From Thermodesulfobacteriota bacterium (GTDB lineage: Bacteria > Desulfobacterota_D > UBA1144 > Nemesobacterales > CSP1-2), in assembly GCA_035559815.1 (NCBI GenBank), contig DATMAT010000054.1:1-38227 (forward strand): 38,227 nucleotides of DNA, given 5' to 3'. The notes beneath the pieces are model-generated. The model did no database searches and was not told where the DNA came from. It saw nothing but the letters and a program-made list of their open reading frames with translations. The translations under genes were made by a program, and so were the position numbers. Positions 14,927 through 29,794 of this stretch are shown one piece after another; positions within the stretch are counted from its first letter, which is position 1, and every line of letters starts with the position of its first letter.

Positions 14927-15084
14927 GTTTTTATCCGGCCGGGGAATTAAAGAATTTCGGCCTTACCCCTCCACTAAGGTTTTGATAGCGAGGGTAGGAT
15001 TAAAAATTCCACTTTCTTATTGTTCTTGACTTATAATGTTAAAAAAGGGTAATTTTATGCTCGGTGTTATTAGATCTTTAACAA

Positions 15085-15252
15085 CACAGATTCTCAAGCG
15101 CCGACATAGGCTTAAAAGGGAAATCCGGTGAGAGTCCGGTGCAGCCCCGCTGCTGTGAGTAGCCCATAAGGCGCCTTGCAAGACGCCACTGGTTTTTAGT
15201 GTTCTGGGAAGGCGCAAGGTGCTCAGGCTACGAGCCAGAAGACCTGCTTGGG
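15085..15252 (+). promoter_or_regulatory. Cobalamin (adenosylcobalamin-type) riboswitch
   Basis: The conserved core is easy to read: AGGGAAATCCGGTGAGAGTC, then CCGGTGCAGCCCCGCTGCTG, a peripheral arm, GGGAAGGCGC, and the B12 box AGCCAGAAGACCTGCT at 15233-15248. It lies on the same strand about 100 bases ahead of a B12-type ABC importer. Bound cobalamin should shut off expression of the downstream gene. Outer boundaries are approximate. Confidence 0.94.
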
Positions 15253-15309
15253 ACTCCAGTTTTCACTTATCTTCGAGGGAAGAGGGTGATGTATTCCTTG
15301 GACAAGGAT

Positions 15310-15344
15310 AATCCTCGCTCCTCTTCTTTCGAAAGGCGAGGATT
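15310..15344 (+). promoter_or_regulatory. Shine-Dalgarno-masking hairpin (riboswitch expression platform)
   Basis: A perfect nine-base-pair stem, AATCCTCGC (15310-15318) with GCGAGGATT (15336-15344), buries the GGCGAGGA ribosome site of btuF two bases before its ATG. There is no following U-run, so control is probably translational. A competing pairing, CGAGG (15274-15278) with CCTCG (15313-15317), would free the site. Which state cobalamin favours is inferred from the usual off-switch behaviour. Confidence 0.6.
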
Positions 15345-15346
15345 TG

Positions 15347-16237
15347 ATGAAAAGATATCTCCAAATCTACTTAATTTTTCTTACTCTAGTACCTTTTGGT
15401 TTCTCTTATTCCTCTTCACGGCCTTTTCCAGAAAGAATAATATCCCTCTCTCCGAATATAACCGAGATCATCTACGGACTTGGAGCAATGGAGAAGGTTG
15501 TCGGCGTTACGCTTTACTCCGATTTCCCACCGGAAGTCGAAGGTCTTCCAAAAGTCGGGGGCTGGATCGACCCCAACCTAGAAGCGATACTAGAGTTAAA
15601 ACCGGACCTGGTAATCATGATCGAGGACCAGAATGAAATCTTCGGAGATAAAATCAGAAAACTGGGCTTAAACACGCTCTCCGTAGATTGCAACGGCTCG
15701 ATCAAAGATATAGCGGACTCGATAGAGCAAATAGGTAGAGCCCTGGGTAAAGAGGCAGAAGCCAAGAAACTGGCGGAAGACATGGATTCCGATTTGGAAG
15801 AGATTAGGACGAAAACAAAAAACATCACTCCTAAGAGGCTACTTTTTGTCGTGGGAAGAAACCCGGGGACGCTCGAAGACATTTATGTCATCGGAAGAAC
15901 CGGTTTTATGAACGAGATGATAACCATCGCCGGGGGTGAAAATGTGATAGATAGCGACAGGCTGGCAGTAAAGGTTTCTAGGGAGGCTATACTCAAGCTC
16001 AATCCGGAGGTAATAATCGAGATAAATCATGAAAAGCTGGACAAGAAAGACAAGGTACTGGCGGAATGGGGCGAGCTTAAGCGGGTATCAGCGGTGAGCA
16101 ATAAAGAGATTTACTCTGTATCCAGCACTGTTCTTCTTCATCCAAGCCAGCGGGTGGTGGAAGGAACCAGAATTTTAGCCAGGATCTTGCACCCGGAGAT
16201 TTTTGACAGATACGGAAGGATAAATATTCACCACTAA
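15347..16237 (+). CDS. btuF: Periplasmic cobalamin-binding protein of ABC importer
   Basis: A 296-residue class III solute-binding protein. A signal peptide (MKRYLQIYLIFLTLVPFGFS, cleaved before YSSSRPF) lacks a lipobox Cys, so the protein should be free in the periplasm. The mature protein opens RIISLSPNITEIIYGLGAM and has VGVTLYSDFPPEV, VGGWIDPNLEAILELKPDLVI, typical of BtuF and relatives; EVIIEINH and LLHPSQRVVEG follow. Sequence alone could also fit a siderophore or haem binder, but the riboswitch decides for a corrinoid. ATG at 15347 follows GCGAGGA by five bases. Its stop codon TAA lies within the first bases of the repeat at 16231. Confidence 0.88.
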   Translation: MKRYLQIYLIFLTLVPFGFSYSSSRPFPERIISLSPNITEIIYGLGAMEKVVGVTLYSDFPPEVEGLPKVGGWIDPNLEAILELKPDLVIMIEDQNEIFGDKIRKLGLNTLSVDCNGSIKDIADSIEQIGRALGKEAEAKKLAEDMDSDLEEIRTKTKNITPKRLLFVVGRNPGTLEDIYVIGRTGFMNEMITIAGGENVIDSDRLAVKVSREAILKLNPEVIIEINHEKLDKKDKVLAEWGELKRVSAVSNKEIYSVSSTVLLHPSQRVVEGTRILARILHPEIFDRYGRINIHH

Positions 16238-16358
16238 GACACAAAGGAAGAGTATGAGTCTCAACAAGAATCCAGAAGCCAGAATACAGGAGAGACAACT
16301 TCTCTTCTTCTGACTTCTACATTCCGTATTCTAACTTAGTGTCTTAGTGCCCTCGTGG
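16231..16358. repeat. Dispersed imperfect palindromic repeat, copy 2 (128 bp)
   Basis: Opens CCACTAAGACACAAAGGAAG and closes CTTAGTGTCTTAGTGCCCTC then GTGG, so its ends are inverted repeats. It is the reverse-complement relative of 11738-11883. It supplies the btuF stop codon and ends 17 bases before the btuD ATG, filling the whole spacer. Confidence 0.8.
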
Positions 16359-16375
16359 TTTAGTCACAAGAAAAT

Positions 16376-17149
16376 ATGGAAAAGATAATCGAAGGGGAGA
16401 ACATAAGGTTTTCCTATGACGGGACCGAGGTTTTAAAAGGGATAGATATCTCCATTGCCAGAGGCAAGATGGTCGGGCTTCTTGGCGCGAATGGCGCCGG
16501 AAAGTCGACCCTCCTCAAGATTCTCTCCGGGATAATTAACATAAAGAGCGGACGGTTGTTCTACAAAGGCAAAGAGCTAAAGGGCTTGGACAGAAGGGAA
16601 ATTGCTAAAAAAATTGCCTATGTTCCCCAGAGTCCGGCCTTCGGTTTTCCTTTCAGCGTTGCGGAAATAGTTCTTATGGGAAGGTCCCCTTATGTGGGAA
16701 GGTTTGAATTTGAGAGGGAAAGCGACTGGAAAATCGCTCTCGATGCCATGGAGACGGTGGGAATAGCCCACCTAAAAGAGCGGCTCGTCACCGAGATTTC
16801 CGGCGGGGAGAGACAGCTCGTTTCACTCGCCCGTGCTCTAGCCCAGGAGCCTGAAATCATGATTCTTGACGAGCCGGCCACCTTCCTGGATTTAAAGCAC
16901 AAAACCGAAGCCATGAAATTGCTGAATAAGCTGAAGGAGGAAAAAAACATCTCCGTTATCGCCGCAACGCACGATATCTTCTCAGGGCTATTTTACTTTG
17001 ACCAGGTCTTAATGCTCAAGGACGGAAGGATATTTGCGTCGGGTGAGTGTGAAGAGATATTGAAAGAAGACGTGTTAACCGCCGTCTATGGAATAGAGGT
17101 CAGAGTGAGAAAAGAGGATGGGAAGATATTCGTCCTTCCCGCAGAGTAA
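16376..17149 (+). CDS. btuD: ATP-binding protein of cobalamin ABC importer
   Basis: A 257-residue ABC ATPase of the FecE/BtuD type. Walker A GANGAGKS is at 37-44, the Q-loop near VPQSP (83-87), the signature ISGGERQ at 141-147, Walker B IMILDEP at 161-167, the D-loop FLDLKH and the switch His in AATHD near 205. It powers import through the BtuC-like permease 48 bases downstream. The ATG at 16376 has no clear Shine-Dalgarno site; the spacer before it is almost entirely repeat DNA, which may have displaced the native leader. Symbol given by context (riboswitch), since the sequence cannot separate corrinoid from siderophore systems. Confidence 0.9.
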   Translation: MEKIIEGENIRFSYDGTEVLKGIDISIARGKMVGLLGANGAGKSTLLKILSGIINIKSGRLFYKGKELKGLDRREIAKKIAYVPQSPAFGFPFSVAEIVLMGRSPYVGRFEFERESDWKIALDAMETVGIAHLKERLVTEISGGERQLVSLARALAQEPEIMILDEPATFLDLKHKTEAMKLLNKLKEEKNISVIAATHDIFSGLFYFDQVLMLKDGRIFASGECEEILKEDVLTAVYGIEVRVRKEDGKIFVLPAE

Positions 17150-17158
17150 AAAAATTAA

Positions 17159-17188
17159 TGTAGAGACGCATGGCAATGCATCTCTACA
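17159..17188. repeat. REP-like palindrome (TGTAGAGACG type) in btuD-btuC spacer
   Basis: Arms TGTAGAGACGCAT and ATGCATCTCTACA are complementary at 12 of 13 positions around GGCA. The same arm start, TGTAGAGACG, forms the long palindrome inside the transposase gene at 24057-24093. It occupies most of the 48-base btuD-btuC spacer. Confidence 0.75.
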
Positions 17189-17197
17189 ATAGAAAAG

Positions 17198-18199
17198 ATG
17201 AACGCCAAGAAGAAGCTGATCGTCTCGTTGAGTTTACTGTTCCTTTTATGGATTCTAATCGCCGGAATTAGCGTATTTGCCGGAACCTACCAGGTGAACC
17301 CGATAAAAGCGCTTCTGTCTGGTGACGAATTATCGAAAACAGTCCTCTTAAAGATTAGAGTTCCCCGGGTGCTGATGGCCGCAGTTGCCGGGGGCACTCT
17401 GGCGGTGTGCGGTGCCGGACTTCAGGCCCTTTTTAGAAACCCTCTCGCCTCTCCTTTTACACTGGGCGTCTCGGGCGGAGCGTCGCTGGGCGCACTCATC
17501 GCCATAAGGTTGGGATTGGCACAGACCGTTTTTGGCTTCTCATCCATTACTATCTTTGCCTTTCTCTTTGCCGTATTCACCATATTTTTTGTCTATTCAA
17601 TCTCTAAGGTGAGAGGAGTTGTAGCTACGGGAAGGCTTCTGCTGGCCGGGGTCGTGGCCAACTTTCTCTATTCCGCACTGATCCTGTTCATCCAGTTCTT
17701 TTCAGACTTCACTCAATCGCTCCAGACCATGAGATGGATCATGGGAAGTCTTGATGTAGTGGGACTCGACTCCGTTTGGAAAACCGTTCTCCTTGCCATT
17801 CCCGGCTGTCTCATTTTACTTTCCATCACCAAGGATATGAATCTATTTGCCCTCGGAGACGACGTTGCTTGCTCCCTTGGGGTGGACGTGGATTCTATGG
17901 AGAAAAAAATCTATTTCGCCACCTCGCTCGCGGCGAGCGCGGTAATCTCGGTGACCGGGCCGATCGGGTTTGTCGGGCTCATAATACCACACGTTCTCCG
18001 GATGATTCTGGGGGTGGATAACCGGGTTATTCTTCCCTGTTCATTCCTTCTCGGGGCGTCATTCCTCATGGCGATGGACACATTATCCAGGACCCTTTTC
18101 TCTCCCGTTGAAATCCCGGTGGGTATAGTTACAGCTTCCATAGGAGGCGTTTTTTTCTTGTGGCTTCTCCTCAGGACAAAAAAGGAAGTGATAGTTTGA
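17198..18199 (+). CDS. btuC: Permease of cobalamin ABC importer (FecCD family)
   Basis: A 333-residue polytopic membrane protein of the BtuC/FecCD fold, usual length, with about ten hydrophobic segments starting LIVSLSLLFLLWILIAGISV. Family signatures are present: RVPRVLMAAVAGGTLAVCGA, then QALFRNPLASPFTLGVSGGA, and near the C terminus GPIGFVGLIIPHVLR, the loop that contacts the ATPase. It is the last gene of the riboswitch-led unit; no TonB-dependent outer-membrane receptor is found within the window. Confidence 0.9.
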   Translation: MNAKKKLIVSLSLLFLLWILIAGISVFAGTYQVNPIKALLSGDELSKTVLLKIRVPRVLMAAVAGGTLAVCGAGLQALFRNPLASPFTLGVSGGASLGALIAIRLGLAQTVFGFSSITIFAFLFAVFTIFFVYSISKVRGVVATGRLLLAGVVANFLYSALILFIQFFSDFTQSLQTMRWIMGSLDVVGLDSVWKTVLLAIPGCLILLSITKDMNLFALGDDVACSLGVDVDSMEKKIYFATSLAASAVISVTGPIGFVGLIIPHVLRMILGVDNRVILPCSFLLGASFLMAMDTLSRTLFSPVEIPVGIVTASIGGVFFLWLLLRTKKEVIV

Positions 18200-23819: not shown

Positions 23820-24362
23820 TTATTTTTCACTTTGTATTTTTGCGACGATTAAGTTCTCAGGATGGTATTCATCCAATTCCCATTTTATAGGGTTATTCAA
23901 AATGTATTCCCTGATTTTTTCTAGGGATTCCTCGCTTCTGACGATGTGCTCGTAAAACCGTGGTTGCCAGGCGAAATCTGAATAACCCTTTGCACGAATC
24001 CTCTTAGTGGTAACAGATTTAAATTGTCCTATAATTGCACCCAGTGAATTTGGTTTTAATGTAGAGACGACCCGGCGGGTCGTCTCTACATTATTTGTAA
24101 TGATGACTATACCGTGTATATGATTCGGCATTACTACCCATTCGTCCAATTTTACATTTTGACGGATTTGTTCTGTCTTCTGCCATTCCTCTGCCGCAAT
24201 TTCTCCAGTTTCAAATAATCTAATTTGACCATCTACAACCTCACCAAAAAAACACTCTTGTTTTTTGGTACAGATAGTAACAAAGTAATACCCACTGGAT
24301 GAATAATCCCAATCTTTTAATCGGGTGGAATCGATGCGGTATTTATCTTTGTATAATCCCAT
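23820..24362 (-). CDS. REP-associated tyrosine transposase, second copy
   Basis: A 180-residue HUH transposase related to the gene at 21447-21938. Shared blocks: YFVTICTKKQECFFG, VVMPNHIHGIVII (His81, His83), then IIGQFKSVTTKRI, AWQPRFYEHIVRSEESLEKI with catalytic Tyr137, and REYILNNPIKW. Residues 90-103 (NVETTRRVVSTL) are encoded by the perfect palindrome at 24057-24093, at the same point of the protein where the other copy carries a different palindrome. It has an extra C-terminal tail (ELDEYHPENLIVAKIQSEK). Apparently intact. Confidence 0.93.
   Translation of the reverse strand: MGLYKDKYRIDSTRLKDWDYSSSGYYFVTICTKKQECFFGEVVDGQIRLFETGEIAAEEWQKTEQIRQNVKLDEWVVMPNHIHGIVIITNNVETTRRVVSTLKPNSLGAIIGQFKSVTTKRIRAKGYSDFAWQPRFYEHIVRSEESLEKIREYILNNPIKWELDEYHPENLIVAKIQSEK
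24057..24093. repeat. Perfect 37-base palindrome inside the transposase gene
   Basis: Position 24057 pairs with 24093 and so on inward: TAATGTAGAGACGACCCG faces CGGGTCGTCTCTACATTA around a single central G, 18 base pairs without mismatch. The arm start TGTAGAGACG is the same as in the btuD-btuC palindrome at 17159. Confidence 0.85.
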
Positions 24363-24404: not shown

Positions 24405-25589
24405 TCATTTGATCTTCTTCTCTTTCTTATTAAACGTAATCCTCAGCACTCCGTCCTGCATGTGGGCTCTCTGCACAGAAAGTTTTGCCAGGAATCCGGG
24501 TAAGAAGAGATTGCGGCGGTGGTTTTCGACCTGAATCGTTAGCTCATCGCCGATCTGTGAGAGCTTGACCTCTTCCTTGGAAACAAAGGGAAGCTTCAAG
24601 AGTAACTGGTAAGAGCCGCCATCCTTGGTGATTTCATACGGTTTTCCCTCAAAAAAGACCTTGGTTGGGTCGTTGTCCGAAAAGAGGGTGAGGGCAAATT
24701 CTTCGAGCGATTTCACCCCCAGAACCTCCTTGGAGAATAAAGGGGCTTCGAAAGTGGGGAGCGGGCTGAAAAGCTCTTCCAGTTCCTCTCGATAAACCTT
24801 CTGGGATTTCTTCCATTGCTCAAAATAGGGATGGTCCAGTTCTTTAGGCATGGTCCTATTGACGATGACCGAATCAACCGGGTATCCGTAAAGATGAAGA
24901 TAGGTATAAGCCCTTTGCGTTTCCTTCATCACCATCTTTTCCAGGTTTAGGACGAGGCGAATCGAGCTTATTTCAGGGTCGGAAAATACCTTGTGAATCG
25001 AGTCCAGTTTCTGGAAAAGGTCTTCGACGGCGTCGTAGGTATGCTCTTCGGGGAGGGGCATATCCGTCACCACCTTCATCGCCGGTCTTATTACCTTCAC
25101 CACCTTTCTCTCTATGGGGAATATCTTCACTATCCACCAGCGGGCTACGTCAGGGAGAGAAAGCAGTCTCAGAGTCTCGCCAGTCGGAGCGCTATCCACT
25201 ATGATGACGTCGTATGACTCCTCCTGAAAATGCTGGTAAACCCAGAGGAAACAGGAAACCTCTTCCATCCCCGGGAGGATGCTGAACTCCTCGGATAAAA
25301 CATCATCCACTTTCATCCAGCCAAACAAGGACTGCATGTATTCCATCAGCTTTCCCCAATATTTTTCGAGAGAGTAATAGACGTCTATCTCCTGGGCGTG
25401 AAGGTTTGGCATAATCCTCTTGGGCTCCGGGCCCAATTCCATATCATAGGAATCCCTCAAGCTGTGTGCCGCATCGGTCGAGACAACCAGCGTCTTGTAT
25501 CCCTTCTTTGCCGCCAGGAGCCCGGTCGCCGCAGCCACCGTAGTTTTACCTACTCCCCCTTTTCCGGTATATAGAATTATTCTCTTCAT
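24405..25589 (-). CDS. ArsA/Get3-family ATPase with C-terminal HSP20-like domain
   Basis: A 394-residue, single-copy ArsA-type ATPase. The deviant P-loop GKGGVGKTTVAA is at 9-20, the switch I segment VSTDAAHSLRDSYD follows, then DSAPTGETLRLLSLPD (switch II) and VILNR-type motif SVIVNRTMPKE. Residues from about 310 form a beta-rich domain (YQLLLKLPFVSKEEVKLSQI...GDELTIQVENHRRNLFLP) like the small-heat-shock ArsA_HSP20 domain found in this subfamily. No arsenite-binding Cys triad is seen, and no ars genes are nearby, so arsenic export is unlikely; a Get3-like chaperone or membrane-protein role is possible but unproven. Start ATG 25589. Confidence 0.92.
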   Translation of the reverse strand: MKRIILYTGKGGVGKTTVAAATGLLAAKKGYKTLVVSTDAAHSLRDSYDMELGPEPKRIMPNLHAQEIDVYYSLEKYWGKLMEYMQSLFGWMKVDDVLSEEFSILPGMEEVSCFLWVYQHFQEESYDVIIVDSAPTGETLRLLSLPDVARWWIVKIFPIERKVVKVIRPAMKVVTDMPLPEEHTYDAVEDLFQKLDSIHKVFSDPEISSIRLVLNLEKMVMKETQRAYTYLHLYGYPVDSVIVNRTMPKELDHPYFEQWKKSQKVYREELEELFSPLPTFEAPLFSKEVLGVKSLEEFALTLFSDNDPTKVFFEGKPYEITKDGGSYQLLLKLPFVSKEEVKLSQIGDELTIQVENHRRNLFLPGFLAKLSVQRAHMQDGVLRITFNKKEKKIK

Positions 25590-27586: not shown

Positions 27587-27671
27587 TGTCATCCCGAGCG
27601 GCAGCGAAGGACCTAGATTCTTCGCTGCGGAATCCTACCCTGAGTCAGCCGAAGAGCCGCTCAGAATGACA
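27587..27671. repeat. Palindromic repeat (TGTCATCCCGAG... type)
   Basis: Begins TGTCATCCCGAGCG and ends CGCTCAGAATGACA, ends that are inverted with small differences; inside, GCAGCGAAG faces CTTCGCTGC around a loop. Elements with these ends and an inner GATTCTTCGC are widespread intergenic repeats in many bacterial genomes. It has no coding content. Confidence 0.72.
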
Positions 27672-27811: not shown

Positions 27812-27840
27812 TTGACAAGACTAAAATAGGTGTATATACT
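27812..27840 (+). promoter_or_regulatory. Strong sigma-70 promoter of the MarR-type gene
   Basis: Perfect TTGACA (27812-27817), an optimal 17-base spacer and TATACT (27835-27840). Transcription would start near 27847, two bases before the ATG at 27849, so the mRNA is probably leaderless; there is no Shine-Dalgarno site. Confidence 0.85.
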
Positions 27841-27846
27841 CCTAAA
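27828..27846. promoter_or_regulatory. Operator over the -10 of the MarR-type gene
   Basis: AGGTGTATATACTCCTAAA, near-palindromic, covering the -10 box. It matches 17 of 19 bases with the site at 28318-28336, upstream of the next gene. A repressor bound here would block its own promoter, as MarR proteins commonly do. Confidence 0.7.
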
Positions 27847-28317: not shown

Positions 28318-28336
28318 AGGTGTATATACACTTAAA
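28318..28336. promoter_or_regulatory. Second copy of the MarR operator, ahead of the FeS/SCP2 gene
   Basis: AGGTGTATATACACTTAAA contains the perfect palindrome GTGTATATACAC (28320-28331). It is 17/19 identical to the site at 27828-27846 and lies 118 bases before the next ATG. A TATAAA at 28313-28318 just upstream could be a -10 box, but I find no convincing -35. Confidence 0.7.
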
Positions 28337-28453
28337 TGGTCCTGGAGCACGTTTGGCGAACCGGTTGCCCTCGTAGGATTAGAGCTACTACTCTGGATAG
28401 TGGTTGCTCTTTCCTAGGGAATAGTAATAACAAAGATTTACGGAGGTCGGTAA

Positions 28454-29794
28454 ATGATGAAACTGGAAGAGCATCCCATAGTGAAACGATATAATGAGAA
28501 GCCAAAAACAGAGCCGTCACCAAACCCAAAACTCGATTCGGAATGGCTTCTAAATCTTTGCCTTGAGGCGGGCGCGGATGACGTCGGATTGGTCGGTATA
28601 GACCGCCCCGAGCTTGATACTGATCGTGAGGATATATTGAATGTGTTTCCACACACGAAAACGCTGGTTAGCCTGGTCTGTCGTATGAACCGAGAGCCCA
28701 TACGGAGCCCGGCTCGTTCGATTGCAAATACAGAATTTCATCAAGTTGGGGACCACGTTAACGAGGTATGTCATCGGGTCGTTTCAGAACTGGAAAATCT
28801 GGGTATACGTGCTCTGAATCCGGCGATGGGGTTTCCTATGGAGATGGATAAATGGAACACCGGTAAAATCTGGGTTGTTTCACACAAGCTCGTTGCCGTT
28901 GCTGCCGGTCTCGGCCGGATGGGAATACATAGAAATGTCATTCACCCGAAATTTGGAAGCTTCATTTTACTGGGCACGATTCTTATCGATGCGGAAGTTA
29001 CAAAATACAGCCAGCCGATTGACTACAACCCCTGCGTCGAATGTAAGTTGTGCGTAGCCGCCTGCCCCACCGGAGCCATCGGGGCAGACGGCCATTTTAA
29101 TTTCTCTGCATGTTATACACATAACTACCGGGAGTTTATGGGCGGGTTCGTAGATTGGGTTGAGAATATTACGGACAGCAAAAATAGCCGGGAATATCGA
29201 AGCAAAGTCAGCGATTCGGAAACCGTATCCATGTGGCAGAGTTTGTCCTATGGGGCCAACTACAAAGCGGCTTATTGCCTTGCCGTATGTCCCGCAGGCG
29301 AGGACGTCTTTGGGCCGTTTCTTGACGACCGGAAGAACTTTTTAAAAGACGTGGTCAGGCCTTTACAGGAGAAAAAAGAAACTGTTTACGTCGTTCCTAA
29401 TTCCGATGCTGAAGTTTATGTGGCACGCCGGTTTCCCCACAAGACCACAAAACGGGTCTCAAACGGGCTCAGGCCTACCTCGATAAAAAGGTTTCTCCGA
29501 GGGTTACCCCTATCATTTCAAAGAGACCAATCGGAAGGACTAAATACGGTCTATCACTTCACCTTTACCGGTGAAGAAGCAGGTGAAGCAAACGTCACAA
29601 TTCGGGACAAGACCATTCAGGTTCACGATGGACACGTCGGAACCGCAGATTTGCATATAACTGCCGACAGCCGCACCTGGCTTGGATTCCTGATGAAGGA
29701 ACGCAGCCTAATCTGGGCATTGGTTGCGAGGAAAATAAAACTAAAAGGGTCTCATCGTTTGCTTAAAGCTTTCGGCAAATGCTTTCCGTCGTGA
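28454..29794 (+). CDS. QueG/reductive-dehalogenase-like FeS protein fused to an SCP2 domain
   Basis: A 446-residue protein without signal peptide. The N-terminal two thirds resemble epoxyqueuosine reductase and reductive dehalogenases: a GADDVGLVGIDRPEL start, FPHTKTLVSLV, AAGLGRMGIHRNVIHPKFGS, then a ferredoxin-type motif CVECKLCVAACPTGAIG (Cys194 to Cys205) and a second, incomplete set (SACYTHN, YCLAVCPAG near 275-279). About residues 350-446 (YHFTFTGEEAGEANVTIRD, ADLHITADSRTWLGF, ALVARKIKLKGSHRLLKAFG) look like an SCP2 sterol/lipid-carrier domain. The combination suggests a reductase acting on a hydrophobic substrate, possibly corrinoid-dependent; both are inference. ATG 28454 follows GGAGG by seven bases. 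A MarR operator precedes it. Confidence 0.88.
   Translation: MMKLEEHPIVKRYNEKPKTEPSPNPKLDSEWLLNLCLEAGADDVGLVGIDRPELDTDREDILNVFPHTKTLVSLVCRMNREPIRSPARSIANTEFHQVGDHVNEVCHRVVSELENLGIRALNPAMGFPMEMDKWNTGKIWVVSHKLVAVAAGLGRMGIHRNVIHPKFGSFILLGTILIDAEVTKYSQPIDYNPCVECKLCVAACPTGAIGADGHFNFSACYTHNYREFMGGFVDWVENITDSKNSREYRSKVSDSETVSMWQSLSYGANYKAAYCLAVCPAGEDVFGPFLDDRKNFLKDVVRPLQEKKETVYVVPNSDAEVYVARRFPHKTTKRVSNGLRPTSIKRFLRGLPLSFQRDQSEGLNTVYHFTFTGEEAGEANVTIRDKTIQVHDGHVGTADLHITADSRTWLGFLMKERSLIWALVARKIKLKGSHRLLKAFGKCFPS

Follow-up and report, generated by a model that had tools for sequence, protein, structure and literature searches.

A protein of 446 residues from a Thermodesulfobacteriota bacterium is a member of an undescribed, widespread family related to the vitamin B12-dependent reductases. 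Its gene lies in the 38,227-nucleotide stretch that was analysed, here called the window (contig DATMAT010000054.1 of assembly GCA_035559815.1). A module of the type known from epoxyqueuosine reductase (QueG) and reductive dehalogenases (RdhA), spanning residues ~28-285, is fused to a C-terminal SCP2 domain. Pfam and fold searches agree on this combination, which an earlier note had read from the letters of the sequence. The same note knew of no assigned function for such an architecture, and none has come to light: a literature search on the QueG-like plus SCP2 architecture yielded no paper.

What the protein does can be proposed only tentatively. The best explanation is an inducible, probably corrinoid-dependent cytoplasmic reductase of lipophilic electrophiles, although the full mechanism, taken as a whole, is still somewhat doubtful. 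The corrinoid, the direction of electron flow, the lipophilic electrophile as substrate and the detoxifying role are parts that we infer. If the proposal holds, the family could bring a third chemistry to the B12/[4Fe-4S] enzymes and show SCP2 domains in a redox role.

Table 1. Features of the locus, in window coordinates
Feature	Position	Strand	Basis
Putative MarR promoter, TTGACA-17-TATACT	27812..27840	+	11/12 consensus matches; consensus match only
Candidate operator, copy 1, GTGTATATACTC	27830..27841	.	Covers the -10 of that promoter; sites also precede MarR in relatives
MarR-family regulator, 150 aa	27849..28301	+	MarR_2 E 9.2e-7, MarR E 1.5e-6, both over cut-off
Candidate operator, copy 2, perfect palindrome GTGTATATACAC	28320..28331	.	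About 19 bp past the MarR stop; flanks covary as a dyad
Ribosome-binding site GGAGG	28442..28446	+	Sequence; 7 bp 5' of the ATG of the fusion gene
Fusion protein, 446 aa	28454..29794	+	ORF call, Pfam, NCBIfam
Nitroreductase-like cobalamin-type module, residues 28-185	28535..29008	+	Foldseek matches, conservation; model partly low-confidence
First cluster motif CVECKLCVAAC, Cys 194, 197, 200, 204	29033..29065	+	Invariant, 75/75
Cys220, cluster II ligand by homology	29111..29113	+	Invariant, 75/75
Ala272, where the eighth Cys is missing (QueG Cys236)	29267..29269	+	Profile alignment and family alignment
Cys275 and Cys279 (CLAVC), last two cluster ligands	29276..29290	+	74/74 where aligned
SCP2 domain, residues 357-442	29522..29779	+	Pfam over cut-off; fold search
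Cys443 in SCP2 tail, proposed replacement ligand	29780..29782	+	46/47 SCP2 members without Cys272

Domain architecture and fold

In Pfam the protein matches Fer4_16 over residues 194-281 (30.7 bits, cut-off 30) and SCP2 (PF02036) over its C-terminal part (E 3.7e-5; 24.4 bits, gathering cut-off 21.3). A chance match to SCP2 is ruled out by Pfam matches in 22 of 30 family members and by the fold search. Nor is the architecture itself accidental, since it recurs at 46-83% identity across phyla.

Two AlphaFold2 models were built from family alignments, one of full length and one of the N-terminal part alone. The SCP2 part of the full model reaches a pLDDT of mostly 82-95. Parts of the nitroreductase-like core are confident; the Fe-S part and the active-site loops stay below 50, and a separate model of the N-terminal part left the confidence of the Fe-S part no higher. 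Foldseek, given the N-terminal model, retrieved QueG, PceA and NpRdhA, all with E <= 1.1e-4, followed by human MMACHC. The SCP2 part found the SCP2-like domains of alkylsulfatases (~105 columns, rmsd 1.7-2.6 Å) as well as human and archaeal SCP2; the predicted structure thus bears out the fold that the earlier note had put up for checking.

Class III cobalamin enzymes combine a nitroreductase-like cobalamin module with a ferredoxin module. Both were found by the fold search, within the limits set by the low confidence of the Fe-S model, and by its predicted fold the assignment of the protein to this QueG/RdhA superfamily is well supported. For base-off cobalamin binding in this class no sequence motif exists, and the authors of the QueG structure considered that further B12/[4Fe-4S] families may exist without a recognisable cobalamin motif (PMC4646009).

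Relation to QueG and RdhA

The NCBIfam models of QueG (TIGR00276) and RDH (TIGR02486) reach 57 bits (cut-off 200) and 31.6 bits (cut-off 160), respectively, and both match residues ~142-221 only. A separate full QueG (392.8 bits) is encoded elsewhere in the same genome. The Asp-Tyr-His motif and the catalytic Asp of QueG are not present by alignment, where the local register is uncertain by a few residues, and the C-terminal alpha-helical (HEAT) repeat domain of QueG is absent, its place being taken by SCP2. A normal QueG, from which the earlier note had already set the protein apart, is ruled out by the sub-cut-off score, the separate genomic QueG and the family alignment. Membership in RdhA is ruled out by the low RDH score and by an active-site Tyr that is not conserved.

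In QueG (PDB 5d6s, 5d08), too, a two-cluster ferredoxin module comes after the nitroreductase-like module, and its AGxGxxG and CxxCxxCxxxCP regions align with those of the fusion family (hhalign probability 97.6%); the fusion protein differs in having SCP2 instead of alpha-helical repeats and seven Cys. The RdhAs (PceA, NpRdhA, JtRdhA) share fold and module order. Here the differences are the added SCP2, a twin-arginine signal that was not seen, and the RdhA Arg positions, which are Phe170 and mostly Leu at 172 in the fusion family (Leu172 in the window). The SCP2/alkylsulfatase C-terminal domains (PF02036, PF14864) have the fold of residues 357-442, yet in the present family this fold is attached to an Fe-S reductase and carries a conserved Cys at its very end.

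Two kinds of outgroup are closer. L117 is likewise fused to SCP2 (over the Pfam cut-off) and shares the architecture over residues 18-444 at 32% identity; unlike the family, it keeps Cys272 and has Ile at 443. Three unnamed QueG-like Fe-S proteins of ~260 aa (L118-L120) share the common core at 26-28% identity and the same insertion before the second cluster motif, but have eight Cys, Tyr at position 99 and no SCP2.

Cluster motifs and active site

The family alignment comprised 75 members and eight outgroup sequences (L117, the three short cousins and four QueGs). Seven Cys (194, 197, 200, 204, 220, 275, 279) are kept wherever aligned. The second motif reads Y-K-A-A-Y-C-x3-CP in the window, as compared to C-x2-C-x3-CP in QueG, and a family-to-QueG profile alignment places Ala272 on the first Cys of the latter. 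This position is Ala in 47 members, Ser in 27 and Cys in none, whereas all eight outgroup sequences have Cys. The second motif, which had been called incomplete from the single sequence, thus lacks its eighth Cys throughout the family.

The alignment also refines this claim: the missing residue corresponds to a ligand of the very cluster that touches the cobalamin in QueG. In the Streptococcus thermophilus enzyme Cys236 ligates the cluster contacting cobalamin, the ligands being Cys194/210/236/239 (PMC4646009). Because the lost Cys corresponds to Cys236, the change affects the cluster nearest the cofactor. There is precedent for an unusual second cluster: some RdhAs combine a [4Fe-4S] with a [3Fe-4S] cluster (PMC6095959).

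Within the nitroreductase-like module N92, H96, P128, R160 and F170 are conserved family-wide, and E94, F95, E130, H144, K145 and H164 are nearly invariant. H223, N224 and Y225 are equally conserved, and K271 is nearly so. The family can be recognised by its seven Cys together with NxEFH, FPxE, HK and THNYxEF. The catalytic Tyr of RdhA presumably falls on position 99, as judged from the multiple alignment and the RdhA consensus. Tyr is found there in the short cousins but in only 16 of the 75 members; the window has Gly99. As hhalign sets the QueG Tyr about two residues off, an exact equivalence at position 99 is best taken as provisional. Phe95 had also been considered as the counterpart of the catalytic Tyr; it was displaced by the cousin sequences, which put the RdhA Tyr at 99.

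Enzymes with a [4Fe-4S] cluster held by three Cys are known. The present family could similarly have given up cobalamin and use cluster II, with its free iron corner, as the catalytic centre. The position of the lost Cys, right at the cluster in contact with the corrin in QueG, would suit this idea, as would the loss of the conserved Tyr and the appearance of N224, Y225, K271 and Y274 as newly invariant or nearly invariant residues near the cluster motifs. The fold, however, is still closest to that of B12-binding proteins, and the RdhAs with one [3Fe-4S] cluster retain their cobalamin (PMC6095959). We therefore regard a loss of cobalamin as rather unlikely and keep to a corrinoid-dependent reductase.

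The SCP2 domain and Cys443

On the preferred reading the SCP2 domain would bind or present a lipophilic ligand. Alternatively, it might be a scaffold or a regulatory lid rather than a substrate carrier, and the substrate need not be lipophilic at all. Its mean pairwise identity of 48.7%, as opposed to 57-68% in the core, speaks for such a subordinate role, and so does its absence from an actinobacterial clade of 24 members. Yet it is retained in all other sampled lineages of many phyla, and redox enzymes and membrane exporters recur among the neighbours; a scaffold or lid is accordingly judged unlikely.

A Cys near the C-terminus is present in 46 of the 47 SCP2-bearing members without Cys272, even where the SCP2 domain is very divergent; the exception is L020. 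L117, which has retained Cys272, does not have it. Conceivably, the eighth ligand of cluster II moved to Cys443, and docking of the loaded lipid domain would complete the cluster beside the active site; the protein would then be a redox enzyme gated by lipid. For the SCP2-less clade the idea puts Ser272 or the substrate at the ligand site instead. This idea is quite improbable. With L117 as the single known outgroup of this kind, and with common descent among the members, the reciprocal pattern of Cys443 and Cys272 is a lead and not a test. No further SCP2-bearing relatives with Cys272 were found on plasmids and viral contigs.

The MarR regulator and its palindromes

The fusion gene lies directly 3' of a MarR gene. 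MarR proteins of one group occur in 40 of 49 non-actinobacterial family loci, mostly directly upstream and on the same strand. A core TGTATATACA, with one mismatch at most, is found at 34 of 44 MarR genes, on both sides in 21. Perfect palindromes (22 of 45) compare with 0.02 expected from shuffles, and at the first flanking pair 49 of 55 sites show complementary bases, where 18.6 would be expected. In the genome of origin the palindrome pattern is almost confined to the MarR/fusion locus; the only other hit of the pattern search, G000:C42:24417, was at chance level according to its control. The conserved palindromes look like the operator of a dimeric regulator. Conserved gene pair and conserved dyads together uphold the earlier proposal of MarR control, which by such comparison is well supported as a prediction. 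A dedicated regulator with its operator also offers a route to the inducer and hence to the substrate.

The regulator is not the same everywhere. Priestia, Nannocystis and G996 (L154) have a TetR in place of MarR. In L005-L008, relatives from the same taxonomic order, another MarR of this group follows the gene, e.g., at L006:836-1351, and the palindrome does not adjoin it. In L111 and L145 a long near-perfect inverted repeat, TGACAACTATATTGTC, is seen upstream of MarR, separate from the operator. In the window, a 14-nt inverted repeat with flanking words of the GAGCGGC type lies between an HtrA-like gene and the MarR gene (27596-27667). It may be a REP-like element, although the GAGCGGC-type word is no commoner in the window than by chance.

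Neighbouring genes and cobalamin

Apart from the regulator, the neighbours vary, though with a common redox and detoxification character: SDR, NmrA-like protein, aldo-keto reductase (AKR), GST, GNAT, alpha/beta hydrolase, ketoacyl synthase and MFS. A YhgE/Pip membrane protein adjoins the gene in Priestia and, with a TetR, in the SCP2-less actinobacterial clade. In two SCP2-fused loci of Streptomyces type (L020, L121) a PDR-like NAD(P)H:2Fe-2S reductase follows directly downstream, the two being 85% identical; the same kind of reductase is a known partner of catabolic RdhAs (PMC10463259), and its place beside the fusion gene is a further likeness to them. The SDR, NmrA, AKR, GST, YhgE/Pip and MFS neighbours and the SCP2 fold would fit the reductase for a greasy substrate that the earlier note had suggested.

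Cobalamin riboswitches were found in 21 of 24 host genomes and in 8 of 14 control genomes, a weak indication because most bacteria use B12 anyway. There is none at the fusion gene. The window does contain one (RF00174, 104.6 bits) at 15079-15265 on the + strand. It is followed by genes for a periplasmic-binding protein, an ABC ATPase and a FecCD permease (15344-18199) with BtuF and BtuC among the best named matches, a set that probably serves B12 uptake. Further along, on the - strand, are an IS200-like transposase (Y1_Tnp, 23820-24362), perhaps of the REP-associated type, and an ArsA ATPase fused to an HSP20-like domain (24405-25589).

MMACHC, the next fold match after QueG and RdhA, might suggest that the protein handles cobalamin, as a CblC-like dealkylase or in B12 repair, or simply transfers electrons, with no small molecule being reduced. 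Its surroundings are MarR or TetR regulators and exporters, not B12 genes, the gene has no cobalamin riboswitch, and an SCP2 domain would be unexpected in such a function, which we consider improbable.

Proposed mechanism

The preferred reading, a reductase of lipophilic electrophiles, would work as follows. MarR, bound to the two palindromes, would keep itself and the fusion gene repressed; its release by a toxic hydrophobic compound would start induction. Electrons would come from the PDR-type NAD(P)H reductase in Streptomyces, and from a general ferredoxin or reductase elsewhere. Their point of entry would be [4Fe-4S] cluster I. They would then move on to cluster II, for which the ferredoxin module provides, by sequence, only three Cys ligands, and from there to a putative base-off corrinoid in the nitroreductase-like module, a site that the modelled fold supports. 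The SCP2 domain would present the lipophilic electrophile, possibly of the epoxy-, halo- or quinone-type, for reductive inactivation; in the one actinobacterial clade that lacks SCP2, the gene for a YhgE/Pip membrane protein adjoins that of the enzyme. Against this scheme count the low model confidence in the Fe-S and active-site loops, the lack of the RdhA catalytic Tyr from most members, the variation among the non-regulator neighbours and the dispensability of SCP2 in one clade.

Distribution and evolution

Relatives at 46-83% identity were found in Deltaproteobacteria, Methylomirabilota, Nitrospirota, Cyanobacteriota, Planctomycetota, Verrucomicrobiota, Acidobacteriota, Myxococcota, Actinomycetota, Alphaproteobacteria and Bacillota; the family spans at least ten phyla, and plasmids carry copies in Priestia and Nostoc. 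The distribution is patchy. The actinobacterial copies come from the order of G301, where 24 of 344 genomes have the gene; the phylum of G329 yielded 13 among 294 genomes and a wide sample 12 among 387. Spread, plasmid copies and patchiness point to horizontal transfer. In phages no full-length relative of the fusion protein was found.

Members without SCP2 form the one actinobacterial clade mentioned above (SH-aLRT 100 in a quick tree); L153 lacks the domain only since its sequence runs off the contig. As L117 also has SCP2, an old fusion followed by a single loss is the simplest reading, with deep forks and a placement of L117 that are poorly supported. One genome (G709) harbours both forms, SCP2-fused L121 and SCP2-less L144, with different neighbours.

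The closest relative (L010:7001-8347, identical to L004/L110; 83% identity) is interrupted in frame by a TAG at codon ~103, reads CHTG instead of CPTG in a cluster motif, and is probably decaying. That the window gene, too, is a decaying copy or an ordinary QueG variant, as this relative and the weak QueG match could insinuate, is hardly credible in view of the full QueG in the same genome, the missing alpha-repeat domain, the strong conservation across phyla and the intact window copy. The short cousins L118-L120, with their RdhA-like Tyr and Arg positions, are possibly another class III family.
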